A stretch of 64,000 nt of DNA from Actinomycetota bacterium (GTDB lineage Bacteria; Actinomycetota; Acidimicrobiia; Acidimicrobiales; MedAcidi-G1). The position numbers and the translations under genes were made by a program. Positions 428 through 9,957 of the stretch are shown here, in pieces; within the stretch, counting starts at the first letter, position 1; the number at the start of each line of letters is the position of its first letter. The DNA lies in the NCBI GenBank assembly GCA_014381945.1, contig JACNKQ010000043.1, positions 1 to 64,000 on the forward strand. Direction: 5' to 3'. Under the pieces are notes generated by a model. That model ran no database searches, was not told where the DNA came from, and worked only from the letters and a program-made list of their open reading frames with translations.

Positions 428-991
428 ATGGCATGGATCCGGACCGTTCCCGATGGTGACTGGGAAGCGGAGGGCGGGCCCCTTGCAGACCTGTACGCCG
501 AGGTCGTGGATGCCACGCACGGCCGCGTCGACCACATCATGGTCGTCCACTCCCTGAATCCGCGGGGGCTCAATGCCCACCTGGGCCTCTACACGTCGGC
601 GATGGCTGGAACCGCCACGCTGCGCAAGGTCGAACGTGAGCTCATTGCTCTCGTGGTCAGCCTCGAGAACCACTGCCACTATTGAGTGACCCACCACCGG
701 CGCGGTCTGCGCCGACTCCTCCGGGACGACGATCTTGTGGCCGCCGTCGAAGCCGACTGGCGCTCGGCGCCGATCTCCGACCAGCGTCGGGCGATGCTCG
801 AGTATGCGATCCGACTGACCACCGCACCGGGCGAGGTTGCCAGGTCCGACATTGACGCCCTCCGTACCGTCGGCTTCAGCGACCGCGACATCCTCGACAT
901 CGCCGAGGTGACCGCCTACTACGCCTACGCCAACCGCATCGCCGACGGCCTCGGCGTCACCACAGAGCCCTGGATCCCCGACCAGGACTGA
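428..991 (+). CDS. AhpD-like peroxidase-related protein, predicted selenoprotein (CxxU)
   Basis: Carboxymuconolactone decarboxylase/AhpD-like family, small disulfide-type peroxidases or reductases. The reading frame is open before and after a single TGA at 683-685 and the family alignment continues without any shift: the expected motif CHYC-V-T-H-H reads CHY-TGA-V-T-H-H. With ATG 428 as start (beginning MAWIRTVP, as family members do), the pair is Cys83 and residue 86. The downstream half (DRDILDIAEVTAYYAY, then NRIADGLGV) is a typical intact C-terminus, so decay is unlikely. A hairpin with loop GGTCT sits 18 nt after the TGA. I read it as a 187-residue selenoprotein with Sec86. AhpD-like selenoproteins are known from marine metagenomes. 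The alternative is a nonsense mutation or sequencing error. Confidence 0.82.
698..714 (+). promoter_or_regulatory. candidate bacterial SECIS hairpin of the AhpD-like gene
   Basis: A perfect 6-bp stem (CGGCGC at 698-703, GCGCCG at 709-714) closes the loop GGTCT (704-708). Exactly 18 nt separate the TGA (683-685) from the loop. The E. coli fdhF SECIS has 18 nt between its UGA and the GGUCU of its loop, which SelB contacts. Here the loop encodes Gly-Leu as GGT CTG, the same codons as in fdhF, although the proteins are unrelated. Confidence 0.75.
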
Positions 992-1217: not shown

Positions 1218-1649
1218 TCAGTCAGCGTCAAGTATCCGAACCGAGCCGTCAGGATCAATGTTCACCCGGATCCCCGTACACAACTCCGCCAACTCCGCCT
1301 CATCCACCAGCACAACCGGCAACGAGACGCCGTACAGCTCGTCAGCCACGATCGCACCCAGCGCCACGATCGCGTCCGCCTCCACCATCACGATCGCCGC
1401 CGGCGCCGTTCCGCAGCGGACCGCCTCGAGGAGGACCGAACTCCCCGAACTCGAGCCGCGGCCGGTGCGCATGACGAGCACCCGGCCGGCGACCGAGCTG
1501 CCCAACTGGGGATGGTGGCGATCGATGATCTCACCGCTCGCAGAATCGAAGCCGCCCCAGAAGCTGAGCGGTTCGTCTAGGTGCAGCACCACGCCTTCGA
1601 CCGGACCCGAAGGCGGACCTGCGACCTGGACCTGCGGTGCCTCAGCCAT
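1218..1649 (-). CDS. AcnX-type dehydratase small subunit (DUF126)
   Basis: Small 'swivel' subunit of AcnX-type hydro-lyases, about 143 residues, the usual size. The family core is seen in VVLHLDEPLSFWGGFD and the later stretch GRGSSSGSSVLLEAVRCG, the conserved glycine/serine loop that contributes to the active site. The ATG at 1649 overlaps the end of the large-subunit gene by 8 nt, so the subunits are translationally coupled. In bacteria, two-subunit AcnX enzymes are cis-3-hydroxy-L-proline dehydratases; in archaea the related enzyme acts on mevalonate 5-phosphate. The neighbouring polar-amino-acid ABC transporter favours the hydroxyproline role, by inference. Confidence 0.85.
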   Translation of the reverse strand: MAEAPQVQVAGPPSGPVEGVVLHLDEPLSFWGGFDSASGEIIDRHHPQLGSSVAGRVLVMRTGRGSSSGSSVLLEAVRCGTAPAAIVMVEADAIVALGAIVADELYGVSLPVVLVDEAELAELCTGIRVNIDPDGSVRILDAD

Positions 1650-2946
1650 CGAAGTGACCTTCGGTCCAGATCGCATCGTCCAGAACCACCTTGCCTGCGA
1701 CGGCCGACTCGACGCACTCCCGTGTGCTCGCCAACACCACATCGACGCCGAGGTTGCCCGGGGCGTAGTAGGCCCACTTTGCCGAGTCGGTCATGGCCGG
1801 CCTCGAGGTTTCGCGAAGAATCGGGGTCACGTAGGTGCAGGTGTCGGTCACAATCGTCACGCCGGCGGACCGCAGGCCTTCTGCCCACCCACGGTCCTCG
1901 ACTTCGTCGAGCACTCCCCGGCCCGTCGAGATGTACACGTCGACCGCCGGGTGCACGTTGCGACCGGCGAGTGCCTCGACGAAGCGGCCGATCTCAGCGA
2001 CCGAGTAGTGCGGTGTCCCGAGGCTGACGGTCGCAAGGTCGCTACCGACCGCCGTGGTCAACAGGTCTCGGGTCCGGCGCAGGTCATCGGATCTCACGAC
2101 GACCACCTCGTCTGGTTGCCGGCCTCCCAGTGCTACCTCCAGGGTCGGCGCCTCGGGGGTTGCCCCGACGACGTGGAACATCCCGACGCTCCCGGCAGAA
2201 GCGGCGGCAGATCCCAACGCCTTCAACCAGTCCTCCCCCGGCGGGTCGGGCACACCATCGATGACCGGAACCCGGTTCCCCACCACCGAGCCGACAAGCG
2301 TTCCGAGGACATGGGGCAGCAGCGAACTTTCCAGCAACCCGGGCATCAGCCCTTCGAGGTGGAACACGACGGTGGCACGTCGGTTCTCATCGAGGTGGAA
2401 CCCCGCCGCCGGTGCCCGACCGGTGACCGCCGCACAGATGTCCACGAAGTCCCCGTAGCGGTCGGTGCGCGCACCGAGCACCGAGTTGGCGAAGGCGATG
2501 GCGTTCGACTCGGCCCAGGCGACGTTCTCGCCGAAGGCGGGGCGATCCTCCAGCTGGTAGGGGGCGCATGTCCATGTGGGCCGACAACCCATGGCGACGT
2601 AGGCGTCCATCAGACGTCGGGCCAGTTCGCCCTCCCCGGGGTCACCCCGGTAGAGGTCGGGGTGCAGGAGGTCGAGGGACGACACGTTCAGGGTCGTGGG
2701 CACCACGACGGCCGCCCCGTCGCCGGCCAGACGCTCGGCGAAATCGAGCGGGGCCCGACCGTGGTACAGACACGAATCGACGTGCGCTCCGGAGATGTCG
2801 AGCAGTTCCTCGGCACCGAGGGCTTCCGCCAGACGGACCACCACCCGCATCGCCAGCCGAACGGCCGGTCCGTCGCCCCCGTCGAGGCGCCTGACGTCGT
2901 CGTCGGTCAGATGGAGGGCCACCCGCGCAGCGTAGGTGCCCGGCAT
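1642..2946 (-). CDS. AcnX-type dehydratase large subunit (DUF521), probable cis-3-hydroxyproline dehydratase
   Basis: Aconitase-X catalytic subunit, 434 residues, binding an Fe-S cluster and removing water from a small hydroxy acid. Family signatures are HLTDDDVRRLDGGDG near the N-terminus, the GAHVDSC and VVVPTTLNVSS segments, CAPYQ with a conserved Cys, and AWAESNAIAFANSVLGAR. The start at 2946 was chosen over an upstream extension because the preceding codons lie inside the ABC ATPase gene and have no family similarity. It starts 10 nt after the ATPase stop and overlaps the small subunit, so transporter and enzyme form one operon. The substrate cis-3-hydroxy-L-proline is inferred from the two-subunit form and the transporter; the next enzyme, a pyrroline-2-carboxylate reductase, is not in the window. 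Confidence 0.88.
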   Translation of the reverse strand: MPGTYAARVALHLTDDDVRRLDGGDGPAVRLAMRVVVRLAEALGAEELLDISGAHVDSCLYHGRAPLDFAERLAGDGAAVVVPTTLNVSSLDLLHPDLYRGDPGEGELARRLMDAYVAMGCRPTWTCAPYQLEDRPAFGENVAWAESNAIAFANSVLGARTDRYGDFVDICAAVTGRAPAAGFHLDENRRATVVFHLEGLMPGLLESSLLPHVLGTLVGSVVGNRVPVIDGVPDPPGEDWLKALGSAAASAGSVGMFHVVGATPEAPTLEVALGGRQPDEVVVVRSDDLRRTRDLLTTAVGSDLATVSLGTPHYSVAEIGRFVEALAGRNVHPAVDVYISTGRGVLDEVEDRGWAEGLRSAGVTIVTDTCTYVTPILRETSRPAMTDSAKWAYYAPGNLGVDVVLASTRECVESAVAGKVVLDDAIWTEGHFDG

Positions 2947-2956
2947 CGCCGCCGGA

Positions 2957-3718
2957 TCAGTAGAGGATCTTGTCGAAGAATGCCCGGGTGCGCTGGTGCG
3001 TCGGATTCGAGAAGACCTCTTCCGGCGGGCCGACCTCGACGATCTCACCCTCGTCGATGAACACAAGGCGGTCGGCGGCGGCCTTGGCGAACCCCATCTC
3101 ATGGGTGACCACGACCATCGTCATGCCCTCGGAGGCAAGTTCGAGCATGACGTCGAGCACCTCCTTGACCATTTCCGGGTCGAGCGCCGACGTCGGCTCG
3201 TCGAACAGCATCACCTTCGGGTCCATCGCCAGCGACCGGGCGATGGCGACACGTTGCTGCTGGCCGCCCGATAGCTGCCGTGGGTAGGCGTCGGCCTTCT
3301 CGGGGATGCCGACCCTGGTGAGTTGGCGGACCGCCACCTCCTCGGCCTCGGTGCGGCTGCGTCCACGCACCTTGCGCTGGGCCAGGGTGATGTTCTCGAT
3401 GACGGTGAGGTGCGGGAACAGGTTGAACTGCTGGAACACCATTCCGACCTCGGCCCTGACATGGTCGATGTCCGTCTTCGGGTCGAGGAGTTCGAATCCA
3501 TCTACCGTGACGAATCCCTCGGTCGGCACCTCGAGGAGGTTGATGCACCGAAGCACGGTCGACTTGCCAGAGCCACTCGGCCCGACGATGACGACGACCT
3601 CGCCCTCGACGACCTCGAGGTCGACATCGACCACGGCGTGGATGGTCCTGTCGAACGTCTTGGAGAGCCCCCGCAGCGAGATCATCTGTGCAGGGCCCGT
3701 TCCACCGTGTGCAGCCAT
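2957..3718 (-). CDS. polar amino acid ABC transporter, ATP-binding protein (GlnQ/HisP type)
   Basis: Cytoplasmic ATPase of a PAAT-family importer, 253 residues. Walker A is GPSGSGKST, the Q-loop sits in [12 protein letters not shown], the signature is LSGGQQQR, Walker B is [12 protein letters not shown], and the switch His follows in [10 protein letters not shown]. The ATG at 3718 begins 1 nt after the permease stop. A GTG at 3730 would add four residues but abuts its own Shine-Dalgarno sequence, so the ATG is preferred. The gene is coupled to the permease upstream and to the AcnX genes downstream. No periplasmic-type binding protein gene is adjacent. Confidence 0.92.
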
Positions 3719-5312: not shown

Positions 5313-6176
5313 TCAGGACTGTGCGTGCTGCCAGCCGAACCGACCCTTGATGCAGAGGTGGCCGTTGGTGACCGAATGGTCGGCCGGTGAGGTCACCTTG
5401 ACGATCCGCTCGTCCTGGACGTGGAGTTCGAGGTTGCAGCCGACACCGCAGAACGTGCAGACCGTGGTGGTGACGCTCTGGGCGTCCTCGTCCCAGGTGC
5501 CCTCCTCGCGCATGTCGTGCTCGGTTTTGAAAACGAGTGCTCCCGTCGGGCAGACGCCGATGCAGTTGCCGCAGTACACGCAGGCTGAGTCGGGCAGCGA
5601 GACGTCGAACTCGGTGGAGATGTGGGCGTCGAAGCCGCGTCCGGCCGTTGCGATGGCGAACGTGAACTGGGCATCCTCGCCGCAGGCCTCGACGCACTTG
5701 TAGCAGAGGATGCAGCGTTCGTAGTCGCGGACGTAGAGGTCGTCCTGGAGCTTCGGCGGCTGCTCGACGGTGGCGATGTCGGCCCGGTCACCCATCCGCC
5801 CCGGGTCGGCGCCGTAGTGCTCCATCCAGGCGTGCACCTCGGCGTCCGCCCGGTCGAGGTCTACCGACGATGCCAGCAGTTCGTAGACCATCCTGCGACT
5901 GGTGCGGACCTTCTCGGAGTCGGTGGACACGACCATGCCGTCCTCGACCCAGCGGGAACAGGAGGGCACGAGCACCCGCGAGTTCTCGACCTCGACGACG
6001 CACACGCGACAGACGTTGACGGGCGTGAGGTTCTCGGCCCAGCACAGCGTGGGCGTGTCGATGCCCTCCTGCCGGCAGGCGTCGAGGATCGTCGACCCCT
6101 CGGGAACCCGGACGGTCCCACCGTCGATGGTCAACTCGACGGGGCGGCGTGGAGCCGATACCGGAACGTCGTTCAT
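5313..6176 (-). CDS. formate dehydrogenase Fe-S subunit carrying the split-off N-terminal domains of the alpha subunit
   Basis: Electron-transfer protein of 287 residues. Domains in order: a [2Fe-2S] ferredoxin fold (Cys45, Cys56, Cys59, Cys73), two [4Fe-4S] sites (Cys155/158/161/165 and Cys199/202/205/209), and at the C-terminus the Mo/W-bis-MGD oxidoreductase Fe4S4 domain (Cys240, Cys243, Cys247, Cys275). In most NAD-dependent formate dehydrogenases these are the N-terminal part of the alpha subunit; here they are a separate last gene of the operon, and the catalytic gene lacks exactly this part. The ATG overlaps the stop of the NuoEF-like gene (ATGA). It should relay electrons from the active site to the diaphorase subunit. 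Confidence 0.88.
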   Translation of the reverse strand: MNDVPVSAPRRPVELTIDGGTVRVPEGSTILDACRQEGIDTPTLCWAENLTPVNVCRVCVVEVENSRVLVPSCSRWVEDGMVVSTDSEKVRTSRRMVYELLASSVDLDRADAEVHAWMEHYGADPGRMGDRADIATVEQPPKLQDDLYVRDYERCILCYKCVEACGEDAQFTFAIATAGRGFDAHISTEFDVSLPDSACVYCGNCIGVCPTGALVFKTEHDMREEGTWDEDAQSVTTTVCTFCGVGCNLELHVQDERIVKVTSPADHSVTNGHLCIKGRFGWQHAQS

Positions 6177-7963
6177 CGTGCACCCTCCAGCAGGCCGAGG
6201 TCGAGGGCGGAGCGGATGGCACCGGAAGCGGTCTGGCCGAGGCCGCAGATCGACGCGTCGCGCATCACCGCCGCCAGGTCGTCGAGGAGTTCGACCTCGT
6301 CGTCGAGGGTCGCACCGTCACGAAGCCGGGCCAGCACCTCCTCCTGGCGGACCGTGCCGACCCTGCAGGGCACGCACTGGCCGCAGGACTCGTCACGGAA
6401 GAACTCGGCGACGCGGCGGACCGTGTCGACCATGTCGTCCTCCTCGCCGAACACCATGACGACCCCGGAGCCCAGGGACACGCCGGCTGCGCGGGTGTCC
6501 TCGAGCGTCAGCGGAAGGTCGAGTTGCTCGGAACGGACGAAGAACCCGGCTGCACCGCCGAGGAGCACGGCATGGGGCTCGTCGGCGCCGACCACGCCTC
6601 CGGCCGCGTCGAGAACGCCGCGCAGGGTGATCCCGAACTCATGCTCGTAGGTGCCGGGATGTGCCACCCGGCCGCTTAGGCAGAACAGACGCGTGCCCGG
6701 AGAACGGTCGGTTCCGGTCGCCCTGTAGGCCTCGCCCCCGTCCAGCATGATCGCCGGCACGTTGAGAAGCGTCTCGACGTTGTTGATGGCGGTGGGCTCG
6801 CCGAACAGGCCGTGGGTCGTGGGGAACGGCGGCTTGTTGCGGGGTTCGCCCCTGAAGCCCTCGATCGAGTTGAACAGGGCCGTCTCCTCGCCGCAGATGT
6901 AGGCGCCGGCGCCGCTGCGCAGGTCGATGTCGAAGCGCTTTCCGGATCCGGCGACATCGGCACCGAGCAGACCGGCCGCCCTCGCCTGGTCGATGGCCAT
7001 GCGCAGGCGGTGGGTGGCCACCGGGTATTCGCCGCGGATGTAGACCCAACCCTGTTCGGCACCGACGGCGATGCCGGCGATCGTCATGGCCTCGACCAGC
7101 GAGAACGGGTCGCCCTCCATGACGACCCGGTCCTTGAACGTGCCGGGCTCGGACTCGTCGGCGTTGCAGACCACGTGACGGGGTCGGCCCTGCTGGTCGG
7201 CTACTCCGCGCCACTTGACGCCCGTCGGGAAGGCGGCGCCGCCGCGGCCTGACAGCCCGGACGTGGACACCTCCTCGATGATCCGGTCCGGACCCATGGA
7301 GATGGCGGCGTCGAGGGCCCGATAGCCGCCGTTGGCCCGGTAGTCGTCGAGGCTCCCGGGGTCGACCACGCCTACCCGGGCGAGCAGCCGCAGACCGGGC
7401 GAGCCTGCCTGGGGCAGGGTGACCGAAGCGGCGGATGTGCGGCCCGAGATCGCCACGGCGACCCCGTCGACGGAACCGGGTGCGATCGTGAGATCGTGGT
7501 CGCCGGTGCGCTGGACGAGCACCGCGGGTCCACGTTCACATTGCCCGAGGCACGGGCTGGCTTTCACGTTGTGGCCGGCGGCACGCAGTTCGTCGATCAG
7601 GCCGAGTGCACCAGGCGGCCGGCAGGCGATGTCGTCGCAGACGTGCACGACGTCGGTGGCCTCCGGTGGCTCGTGAGTGAACAGGTGGTAGAAGGTCGCA
7701 ACGCCGTAGGCCTCGGCGGGCGGCACCTCGAGTTGCCGACATGCGTAGTCGAGCCCGCCGGGGCTGATCCACCCCGAGGTCCGCTGGATGGCGTGTAGCG
7801 CCGGCAACAGCAGGTGCCGGCGCTCGGCTGTCCGTGCCCGCCCGGCGTACACGAGACGCTCGCCCTCCACCACGACCACGGCCCCGAGTTCGGCTACGAC
7901 CCCATCGACTGCGAGGCGTTCGGCGTCGGAGGGTTCGGCCTCGGAGAACCGGAGGTCAGGCAT
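6173..7963 (-). CDS. formate dehydrogenase diaphorase subunit (NuoE-NuoF fusion)
   Basis: Fusion of a NuoE-like thioredoxin-fold [2Fe-2S] domain (residues about 1-200; ligands in CDDIACR and CLGQC) with a NuoF-like FMN/NADH domain (GRGGAAFPTGVKW, then the NADH/FMN region GAGAYICGEETALFNSIEG) and a C-terminal [4Fe-4S] site in ESCGQCVPCRVGT. Length is 596 residues. It passes electrons from formate to NAD. Start ATG 7963 (MPDLRF) overlaps the end of the catalytic gene by 8 nt; a longer upstream reading lies within the catalytic gene. NAD rather than NADP as acceptor is inferred from the family. Confidence 0.9.
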   Translation of the reverse strand: MPDLRFSEAEPSDAERLAVDGVVAELGAVVVVEGERLVYAGRARTAERRHLLLPALHAIQRTSGWISPGGLDYACRQLEVPPAEAYGVATFYHLFTHEPPEATDVVHVCDDIACRPPGALGLIDELRAAGHNVKASPCLGQCERGPAVLVQRTGDHDLTIAPGSVDGVAVAISGRTSAASVTLPQAGSPGLRLLARVGVVDPGSLDDYRANGGYRALDAAISMGPDRIIEEVSTSGLSGRGGAAFPTGVKWRGVADQQGRPRHVVCNADESEPGTFKDRVVMEGDPFSLVEAMTIAGIAVGAEQGWVYIRGEYPVATHRLRMAIDQARAAGLLGADVAGSGKRFDIDLRSGAGAYICGEETALFNSIEGFRGEPRNKPPFPTTHGLFGEPTAINNVETLLNVPAIMLDGGEAYRATGTDRSPGTRLFCLSGRVAHPGTYEHEFGITLRGVLDAAGGVVGADEPHAVLLGGAAGFFVRSEQLDLPLTLEDTRAAGVSLGSGVVMVFGEEDDMVDTVRRVAEFFRDESCGQCVPCRVGTVRQEEVLARLRDGATLDDEVELLDDLAAVMRDASICGLGQTASGAIRSALDLGLLEGAR

Positions 7964-9857
7964 CGACCAGCGACTCCAGCTTGTCGACCCTGATGGCCGC
8001 CGCCTTGAACTCGGCGGTTCCGGACTTGGGGTCGTAGGCGTCGCAGGTGAGCTGGTTGACGTCGGCGAGCTCGGGGAAGTGGAAGGTCGTGAACGCCAGC
8101 CCGACCTGCAGGCTGGCATCGATCGCGATGGTCATCTCGATGGTGCCGCGGCGGGACGAGACGCTGACGCGCTCTCCGGCCACGACGCCAAGTGCAGTGG
8201 CGTCCGCCGCCGACAGGTCGAGCGCCTCGCCGGTGCGGATCGGCGAGTTGTACTTGTCGGTCTGGACCCCGGTGTTGTACGAGTCGAGGGCCCGACCGGT
8301 GGTGAGCCGCAGCGGGAACTCGTCGGTGAGCTCGTCGATCGGCGGCTTCCAGGGGATGCACGAGAACGGGGCGGGTCGCCCACCCACCGGGTCCTCCCAG
8401 AGGCGACCGTGCAGGAACGGGCTGCCGGGGTGGCCCTCCTCGGGGCAGGGCCACTGGATGCCGCCCTCTGCCCTGATGCGCTCCCAGGACATGCCTGTGT
8501 GCATGGGCGAGAGCGTTCGAAGTTCTTCCCAGAGCTCTTCGGCGGTCGGACGGCCCCAGTCGGTGGCGCCCATGCGCTCGGCCAGGTCGGCGACGATGTC
8601 GATCTCCTGTCGGGCCTGGCCGGGTGGGGGCACGGCGGCGCGGGTGCGCTGCACACGGCGTTCGCTGTTGGTGACCGTGCCGTCCGACTCCGCCCACCCG
8701 AGGGCGGCCGGGAGGACCACATCGGCCATCTCAGCGGTGCGGGTCATGAACACGTCCTGGACGACCATGACGTCGAGCTTTCCGAGCAGCCGGCGGGCGT
8801 GGTTGACATCGGCCTCGGAGTCGGCCGGATTCTCGCCGATGACCCAGAGTGCCTTGAGTTCGTCGCGACCCATGGCCTCGAACATCTCGGTGAGGTTCCA
8901 ACCGTTCCCTGCGGGGATCGCTGTGCCCCAGACCGCCTCGAACTTCGCACGTGCCTCGTCGTCGTCGACATCCTGGAAGCCGGGCAGCTTGTTGGGCAGG
9001 GCGCCCATGTCCCCGCCACCCTGCACGTTGTTCTGGCCCCGCAGTGGGCAGAGGCCCGATCCCCAGCGGCCAACGTGGCCCGTGAGCAGGGAAAGGTTGC
9101 ACAGCGACAGCACGTTGTCGACGCCGGTGTGGTGTTCGGTGATGCCGAGTGTCCAGAGGATCTGGGCCATCGGGGCCGTGGCGTAGGCGTGCGCCATCTC
9201 GCGGATTGCGCGGGCCGGTACGCCGGTGACCTCCTCGGTGCGCTCGAGCGTCCATTCGTCGACGTAGGCGGCGAACTGCTCGTAGCCGGTTGTGGCCCTG
9301 TCGACGAACTCACGGTCGACCAGGTCGGCGGCGATGATCTCACGGGCGACACCGTGGGCCAGGGCGATGTCCGACCCGACGTTCAGGCCCAGCCAGGCAT
9401 CGGCGAACTTGGCCGACGACGAGCGGCGTGGGTCGACAGCCCACATCCGGGCTCCGTTGCGAAGGCCCCGCAGGACGTGGTGGAAGTAGATGGGGTGGGC
9501 GGCCCGTGCATTAGAGCCCCAGATGAGGATGACGTCGGTCTCCTCGACCTCCCGGTACGAAGAGGTGCCTCCGCCTGCTCCGAAGACCGTCGCCAGACCG
9601 ACGACGCTGGGAGCGTGTCAAGTTCGATTGCAGCTGTCGATGTTGTTCGATCCGACGACAGTCCGGGCGAAGCGCTGGACGGCGTAGTTCACCTCGTTGG
9701 TCGTCTTCGAACAGCTGAAGATGCCGAAGGAGGTCGGGCCGTGGGCGTCGATCACGCCACGGAACCCGGCAGCGGCCCGGTCGAGGGCTTCGTCCCAGGT
9801 GGCTTCACGCAGCCGGCCGTCGTCTCGGACCATCGGTGTCGTCAAGCGTTGGCTCAT
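7956..9857 (-). CDS. fdhA: formate dehydrogenase catalytic subunit, predicted selenoprotein
   Basis: Molybdo/tungsto-bis-MGD formate dehydrogenase, 633 residues, oxidising formate to CO2 in the cytoplasm. The frame is interrupted once, by a TGA at 9620-9618, exactly where the metal ligand lies: SCNRT-TGA-HAPSV is the place of Sec or Cys in all homologues. After it the family continues (GLATVFGAGGGTSSYREVEE, then WGSNARAAHPIYF). With the ATG at 9857, preceded by GGGGGAG, this is residue 80; E. coli FdhF has Sec140, the difference of about 60 matching the missing N-terminal Fe4S4 domain, which is in the 5313-6176 gene. A hairpin follows the TGA. It lies 100 bp after caiD and opens the formate dehydrogenase genes. 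Confidence 0.88.
9589..9605 (-). promoter_or_regulatory. candidate bacterial SECIS hairpin of fdhA
   Basis: On the minus strand, GTCGTC (9605-9600) pairs with GGCGAC (9594-9589), with one T-G pair, around the loop GGTCT (9599-9595). The loop begins 18 nt after the TGA at 9620-9618, the same distance as in E. coli fdhF and in the AhpD-like gene of this window. The Gly-Leu codons in the loop are GGT CTG although GGC CTC would suit this genome. Confidence 0.75.
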
Positions 9858-9957
9858 CGTCTCCCCCATGCCTGGTCGTCTGGTGCTGCGCCACCGGTGC
9901 GGCGCCCGCTCGGAAACCTAGCGCCTCCGGTCCGGTTCCAATTTCCTGCGGGGAGGC

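Follow-up and report, generated by a model that had tools for sequence, protein, structure and literature searches.

An AhpD-like (TIGR01926-type) protein of Acidimicrobiales with a proposed selenocysteine at a conserved in-frame UGA

Introduction

Close to the start of the 64,000-nucleotide stretch of DNA analysed here (the window) lies a frame that opens with ATG at 428, closes with TGA at 989-991 and contains a single internal stop, the TGA of codon 86. Read with U at this codon, the surrounding residues are NHCHY-U-VTHHRRGLRR. Is this one gene whose UGA is decoded as selenocysteine (Sec), a pair of genes, or a damaged gene? The initial annotation had favoured a 187-residue AhpD-like selenoprotein in which Sec replaces the second Cys of a CxxC motif. 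It had also pointed to AhpD-like selenoproteins from marine metagenomes: an AhpD-like CXXU protein was first described from the Sargasso Sea (PMC1088965), and AhpD-like 1 and 2 appear in the GOS survey (PMC2398784). A 2026 review lists an 'AhpD-like protein, TIGR01926, CxxU' (PMC13188914), with MCB9421940.1 as the published TIGR01926 Sec example. The features discussed below are collected in Table 1.

Table 1. Features of the selenoprotein locus and further candidate Sec genes in the window and genome
Feature	Position	Strand	Description
AhpD-like (TIGR01926) selenoprotein gene	428..991	+	187 aa, Sec = residue 86; open frame with TGA read as Sec
Proposed Sec codon (U86), second Cys of CxxC	683..685	+	in-frame UGA; identical codon TGA in 44/44 subfamily loci
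Active-site motif C83-H-Y85-U86-V-T-H-H90	674..697	+	E-C-Y-U-H spacings in 40/40 loci
E71, fifth relay residue	638-640 (codon)	+	same 40/40 spacing basis
SECIS-like hairpin	698..714	+	stem 698-703 CGGCGC / 709-714 GCGCCG, 6 bp perfect; loop 704-708 GGTCT (GGUCU)
Second proposed Sec codon of the window, formate dehydrogenase alpha catalytic gene	9618..9620	-	UGA in SCNRT-U-HAPSV; part 3' of TGA 531.6 bits to TIGR01591
Formate dehydrogenase SECIS-like hairpin	9588..9606	-	7-bp stem, GGUCU loop 18 nt after UGA
AhpC-TSA-family genes with TGA (L091, L092, L093)	own genome, contigs C20, C76, C59		TPGU, SSWUGC, APSUPTC

Results

A single protein family spans the internal UGA

Direct reading confirmed that the TGA at codon 86 is the only interruption of the frame, and the ATG at 428 coincides with the point where the alignment to relatives begins. 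Family searches were carried out with the Sec entered as C. The protein belongs to TIGR01926 ('peroxidase-related enzyme'; 145.7 bits, cut-off 81.8, residues 29-181) and also matched the Pfam CMD model (44.2 bits, cut-off 23). Both matches cross the TGA position, and the homology that had been noted in the same frame on either side of the TGA is thus that of one family. The TIGR01926 motif, a CxxC with a Glu 12 residues before it and a His 4 residues after its second Cys, was found in all 40 loci compared (see below) as E71, C83, U86 (for Cys) and H90. The AhpD-like label holds at the level of fold and motif; strictly, the protein is of the TIGR01926 'peroxidase-related' type and not AhpD proper, for which it scored 16 bits against a cut-off of 191.95 (TIGR00777). 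It likewise fell far below the cut-offs of two related CMD-fold (seleno)protein families, the AhpD_rel_CFYUT selenoprotein (NF041238; 36.3 bits, cut-off 175) and GroundWater_YciW (NF053654; 19 bits, cut-off 310), and no locus genome-wide reached the NF041238 cut-off.

In sequence searches the solved relatives 2pfx, 3c1l, 2oyo and 6k40 aligned across both halves of the protein, and in all three alignments examined a Cys stands at position 86, so that U86 aligns with the second residue of their CxxC pair. An AlphaFold model built from a three-sequence input was usable over approximately residues 62-173, residues 1-61 being of low confidence, and its best PDB matches were 3c1l, 2pfx and 6k40. By structural alignment 2pfx (Silicibacter), 3c1l (Mesorhizobium mlr4105) and 6k40 (D. 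radiodurans AhpD-like) are 32-40% identical to the protein and share its helical fold and the position of the CxxC, with Cys there where Sec is proposed here. M. tuberculosis AhpD (1knc, 1gu9), a TIGR00777 protein, has the CxxC/U helix pair and the relay Glu-Cys-x-Cys-His in common with it (PMC3141380), but identity is 11-13% and the fold scores are weak.

These alignments bear on whether the locus could hold two genes, 428-685 and 686-991, coupled translationally by TGAGTG. A GTG does follow the TGA directly, and the list of open reading frames has entries of 97 and 101 aa for the region. However, the break would fall within the catalytic motif, and both the family models and the solved structures span the TGA.

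The UGA is conserved among relatives

The relatives set comprised 61 genomes. Leaving aside the genome of the window, 37 of them contained full-length matches interrupted by a single in-frame TGA, 38 loci in all. Together with the window and one GTDB locus (L023) these made up the set of 40 loci, in every one of which the TGA occupies the equivalent codon, with C-H-Y-U as its context. Sampling 296 genomes across the phylum yielded four further loci (59-66% identity), all with TGA. The codon of U86 is TGA in 44 of 44 subfamily loci, the window included, from several families of the phylum, and Cys in none. The solved relatives and distant actinobacterial homologues have Cys at this place, the pattern by which bacterial selenoproteins are recognized. 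In a tree of 60 proteins the 44 TGA loci formed one group with no Cys member (support 93/80, or 98/96 for the 43 that remain when the distant G052 is left out). Record titles of the relatives include Acidimicrobiales bacterium and Candidatus Microthrix sp. UBA2131. No relatives of the protein were found in the viral contigs searched, and the 414 matching records of a plasmid collection were all below 60% identity, the ten listed reaching at most 42.8%.

The contig begins just 427 bases 5' of the gene, a position at which an assembly error, a nonsense mutation or a decaying pseudogene might be suspected. Since the TGA is shared across independent assemblies of the relatives, it is not a sequencing error; a TGC or TGT at 683-685 had been named as an observation that would refute Sec, and other species show TGA at the equivalent codon. 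The protein is moreover conserved on either side of the TGA, and the hairpin described below is under selection. The comparative data refute this explanation, to which we assign a negligible probability.

The terminal stops of the 40 loci are mixed (TGA 22, TAA 10, TAG 8), the internal codon being always TGA, and a start codon follows it directly in no more than 17 loci, others reading GTA, GTT, ACG, ATT, GCA etc. Hence, neither two genes nor general UGA readthrough fits. The two-gene reading fails because a start codon is so often missing, and we consider it highly improbable. General suppression or reassignment of UGA, with Trp or another residue in place of Sec, draws on the fact that an open frame alone is silent on which residue goes in. 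Against it, TGA is the terminal stop of the 428-991 gene itself as well as of the 22 loci counted above, the position is that of the catalytic Cys of homologues, and the genome has the full Sec machinery, with a SECIS-like element at the locus (see below). This alternative is as improbable as that of two genes.

Sec-type relatives of about 40% identity occur in other actinobacteria (L078-L081, L083, L088-L090) and are found beside the first kind in three genomes (G116, G235, G271); in the Sec-type relative of G279 the first Cys is gone (AHYU). One genome of the set (G001) carries two near-identical gene copies (L030 and L064, on contigs C48 and C4), reflecting either duplication or assembly redundancy.

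A SECIS-like hairpin follows the UGA

The perfect 6-bp hairpin with a GGTCT loop that had been described from nucleotide 13 after the TGA was confirmed by direct reading; 12 nt separate the TGA from the stem and 18 nt separate it from the loop. An identical offset had been claimed for E. coli fdhF, and this was confirmed on its sequence in an E. coli collection: the fdhF SECIS carries GGUCU as its apical loop, likewise 18 nt beyond the UGA. The fdhF stem has a bulged U, a feature absent from the 698-714 hairpin. The window contains 1,219 TGA trinucleotides, both strands counted. Of these, only two have a GGTCT loop 18 nt away on a stem of 6 bp or more, namely TGA 683-685 and the one in the formate dehydrogenase gene; another, at 687, merely shares the 698-714 hairpin. 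When synonymous codons were redrawn from the gene's own usage with the protein fixed, loop and stem arose with P ~0.009, a value for this gene alone.

All 40 loci keep the GGTCT loop at the 18-nt offset. Among 34 distinct sequences the loop was invariant, 89.2% of stem cells were paired and four of the six pairs had changed on both sides, as in C-G to U-A beside the loop (G009) and G-C to A-U (G011, G019). None of 500 shuffles matched the observed pairing and covariation, in a test that overstates independence because the sequences are kin, and shifting the 3' side abolished pairing. Synonymous codons are frozen under the hairpin only (GGT 40/40, CTG 38/40, CGC 38/39) and are freer on either side, the 25 codons 5' of the TGA ranging from 23 to 82%. 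In the most distant locus (G052, 46% identity) the stem is wholly different (CGGAGAA/TTCTCCG) and one base out of register, with GGTC still in the loop; in one genus (g3) it is only 3-5 bp. An Rfam scan of 400-1200 found no known SECIS, its matches being at chance level. Covariation and codon freeze together provide evidence for RNA-level constraint on the 698-714 element, which would make it the SECIS hairpin expected downstream of a Sec codon.

The genome encodes the Sec machinery and further candidate selenoproteins

A search for selA, selB, selC and selD, as the initial annotation had advised, found all four in the source genome (2.49 Mb, 78 contigs, 97.5% complete), the set that a bacterial selenoprotein calls for. 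The tRNA-Sec scored 67.5 bits and was called by ARAGORN as tRNA-SeC with anticodon tca (UCA). Both selA (387.8 bits) and selB (264.7 bits) exceed their cut-offs and adjoin on contig C5; selD (362.5 bits) lies on contig C69 and has a single in-frame TGA of its own in AG-U-GCKL, the usual Sec site of SelD. In the relatives set, selA was found in every carrier of the gene except G015 (bin 85% complete) and G028 (69%).

The scan for TGA with a hairpin covered the 64-kb window, and the list of the genome's selenoproteome is accordingly partial. In three of the five AhpC-TSA loci elsewhere in the genome, the codon of the catalytic Cys is an in-frame TGA. TPG-U-T is BCP/PrxQ-like, SSW-U-GC belongs to the UGC-type peroxiredoxin-like proteins and APS-U-PTC is thioredoxin-like; they resemble the Prx TxxU, Prx-like UGC and Trx-like UxxC families of the GOS survey (PMC2398784).

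The formate dehydrogenase locus occupies 5313-9917 (-), with the Sec-encoding catalytic gene at ~9917-7956, a NuoE-NuoF fusion at 8119-6173 (-) and a HoxU-like Fe-S protein at 6176-5313 (-). The C-terminus of the latter corresponds to the N-terminal segment of the alpha subunit (TIGR01591 positions 1-49), and the alpha subunit therefore looks split over two genes.

Thus, Sec insertion at UGA 683-685 is strongly supported by the comparative data, and the reading given in the initial annotation is upheld. The codon is almost certainly read as Sec, and the best explanation of the locus overall, which we hold to be very probable, is one selenoprotein gene with a TIGR01926-type thiol oxidoreductase as its product.

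Active-site residues point to peroxide or thiol-redox chemistry

The proton relay of AhpD consists of Glu, Cys, His/Tyr, Cys and His (PMC3141380). All five residues are present here, as E71, C83, Y85, U86 and H90, and are kept in all 40 loci, from which we infer that Sec86 would be the attacking residue and that C83 would resolve. Of tested proteins, the AhpD-like enzyme of D. radiodurans is the closest. It protects against H2O2; its loss increases H2O2 sensitivity, and its CxxC matters (PMC8945050). In other bacteria lipoylated proteins act as reductants of AhpD, which in turn can supply AhpC or OsmC (PMC8945050). Peroxide or thiol-redox chemistry is likely for the product of 428-991.

A selenoprotein with other chemistry, such as a reductive dehalogenase-like or another CMD-fold reaction, is an unlikely but not a negligible alternative. 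The fold includes the debrominase Bmp8 (matches 6ohi/6ohj), and the conserved neighbours of the gene, two convergent aconitase X genes, give no peroxidase context. Against this stand the complete set of relay residues, the peroxidase-related or antioxidant entries among the nearest solved relatives, and the further Sec-encoding peroxiredoxin-like genes of the genome.

The aconitase X swivel and catalytic genes (1218-3102, -) are convergent to the selenoprotein gene and adjoin it in many family relatives, and the upstream neighbours vary between genera. There is hence no operon partner, and the neighbourhood was dropped as a functional clue.

Discussion

The decoding and catalytic steps can be outlined as follows, as a proposal drawn from the sequence comparisons. 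SelB with Sec-tRNA(UCA) would bind the hairpin at 698-714, and the complex would insert Sec at the UGA. The product would be an all-helical thiol oxidoreductase of the AhpD fold and TIGR01926 type, with Sec86 in place of the second Cys of CxxC. Deprotonated through an E71/Y85/H90 relay, Sec86 would act as the nucleophile, with a peroxide or a partner protein in its oxidised form as target; C83 would then resolve, forming a Se-S bond between Sec86 and C83 that a dithiol donor of the lipoylated-protein or thioredoxin type may reduce. Without selenium, translation would end at an 85-residue fragment.

That the protein belongs to an already described selenoprotein family is well supported. It shares the family model, the Sec position and the thiol-redox setting with the published TIGR01926 CxxU selenoprotein (PMC13188914) and, since that form is already in the review, adds a member to a known family. 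In comparison to the published entry, what is documented here is the host genome, its selA, selB, selC and selD, and a subfamily in which no Cys form was seen. The additions are therefore the host lineage, Acidimicrobiales and other Actinomycetota, a subfamily that is Sec-only as sampled, and the apparent RNA-level constraint on the hairpin. More tentatively, an obligately Sec-dependent TIGR01926 subfamily with no Cys counterpart, distributed across Acidimicrobiales and other Actinomycetota, might join the Sec peroxiredoxin-like proteins in one selenium-based peroxide defence of these small-genome actinobacteria; we regard this as possible, though doubtful.

The finding leaves the understanding of Sec decoding unchanged. 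Its consequence is for annotation, as standard gene prediction will cut this gene in two or truncate it in every genome of the clade. Read correctly, the locus gives a lineage with a sparse selenoprotein literature a conserved Sec enzyme, and would tie selenium supply to redox defence in these bacteria.
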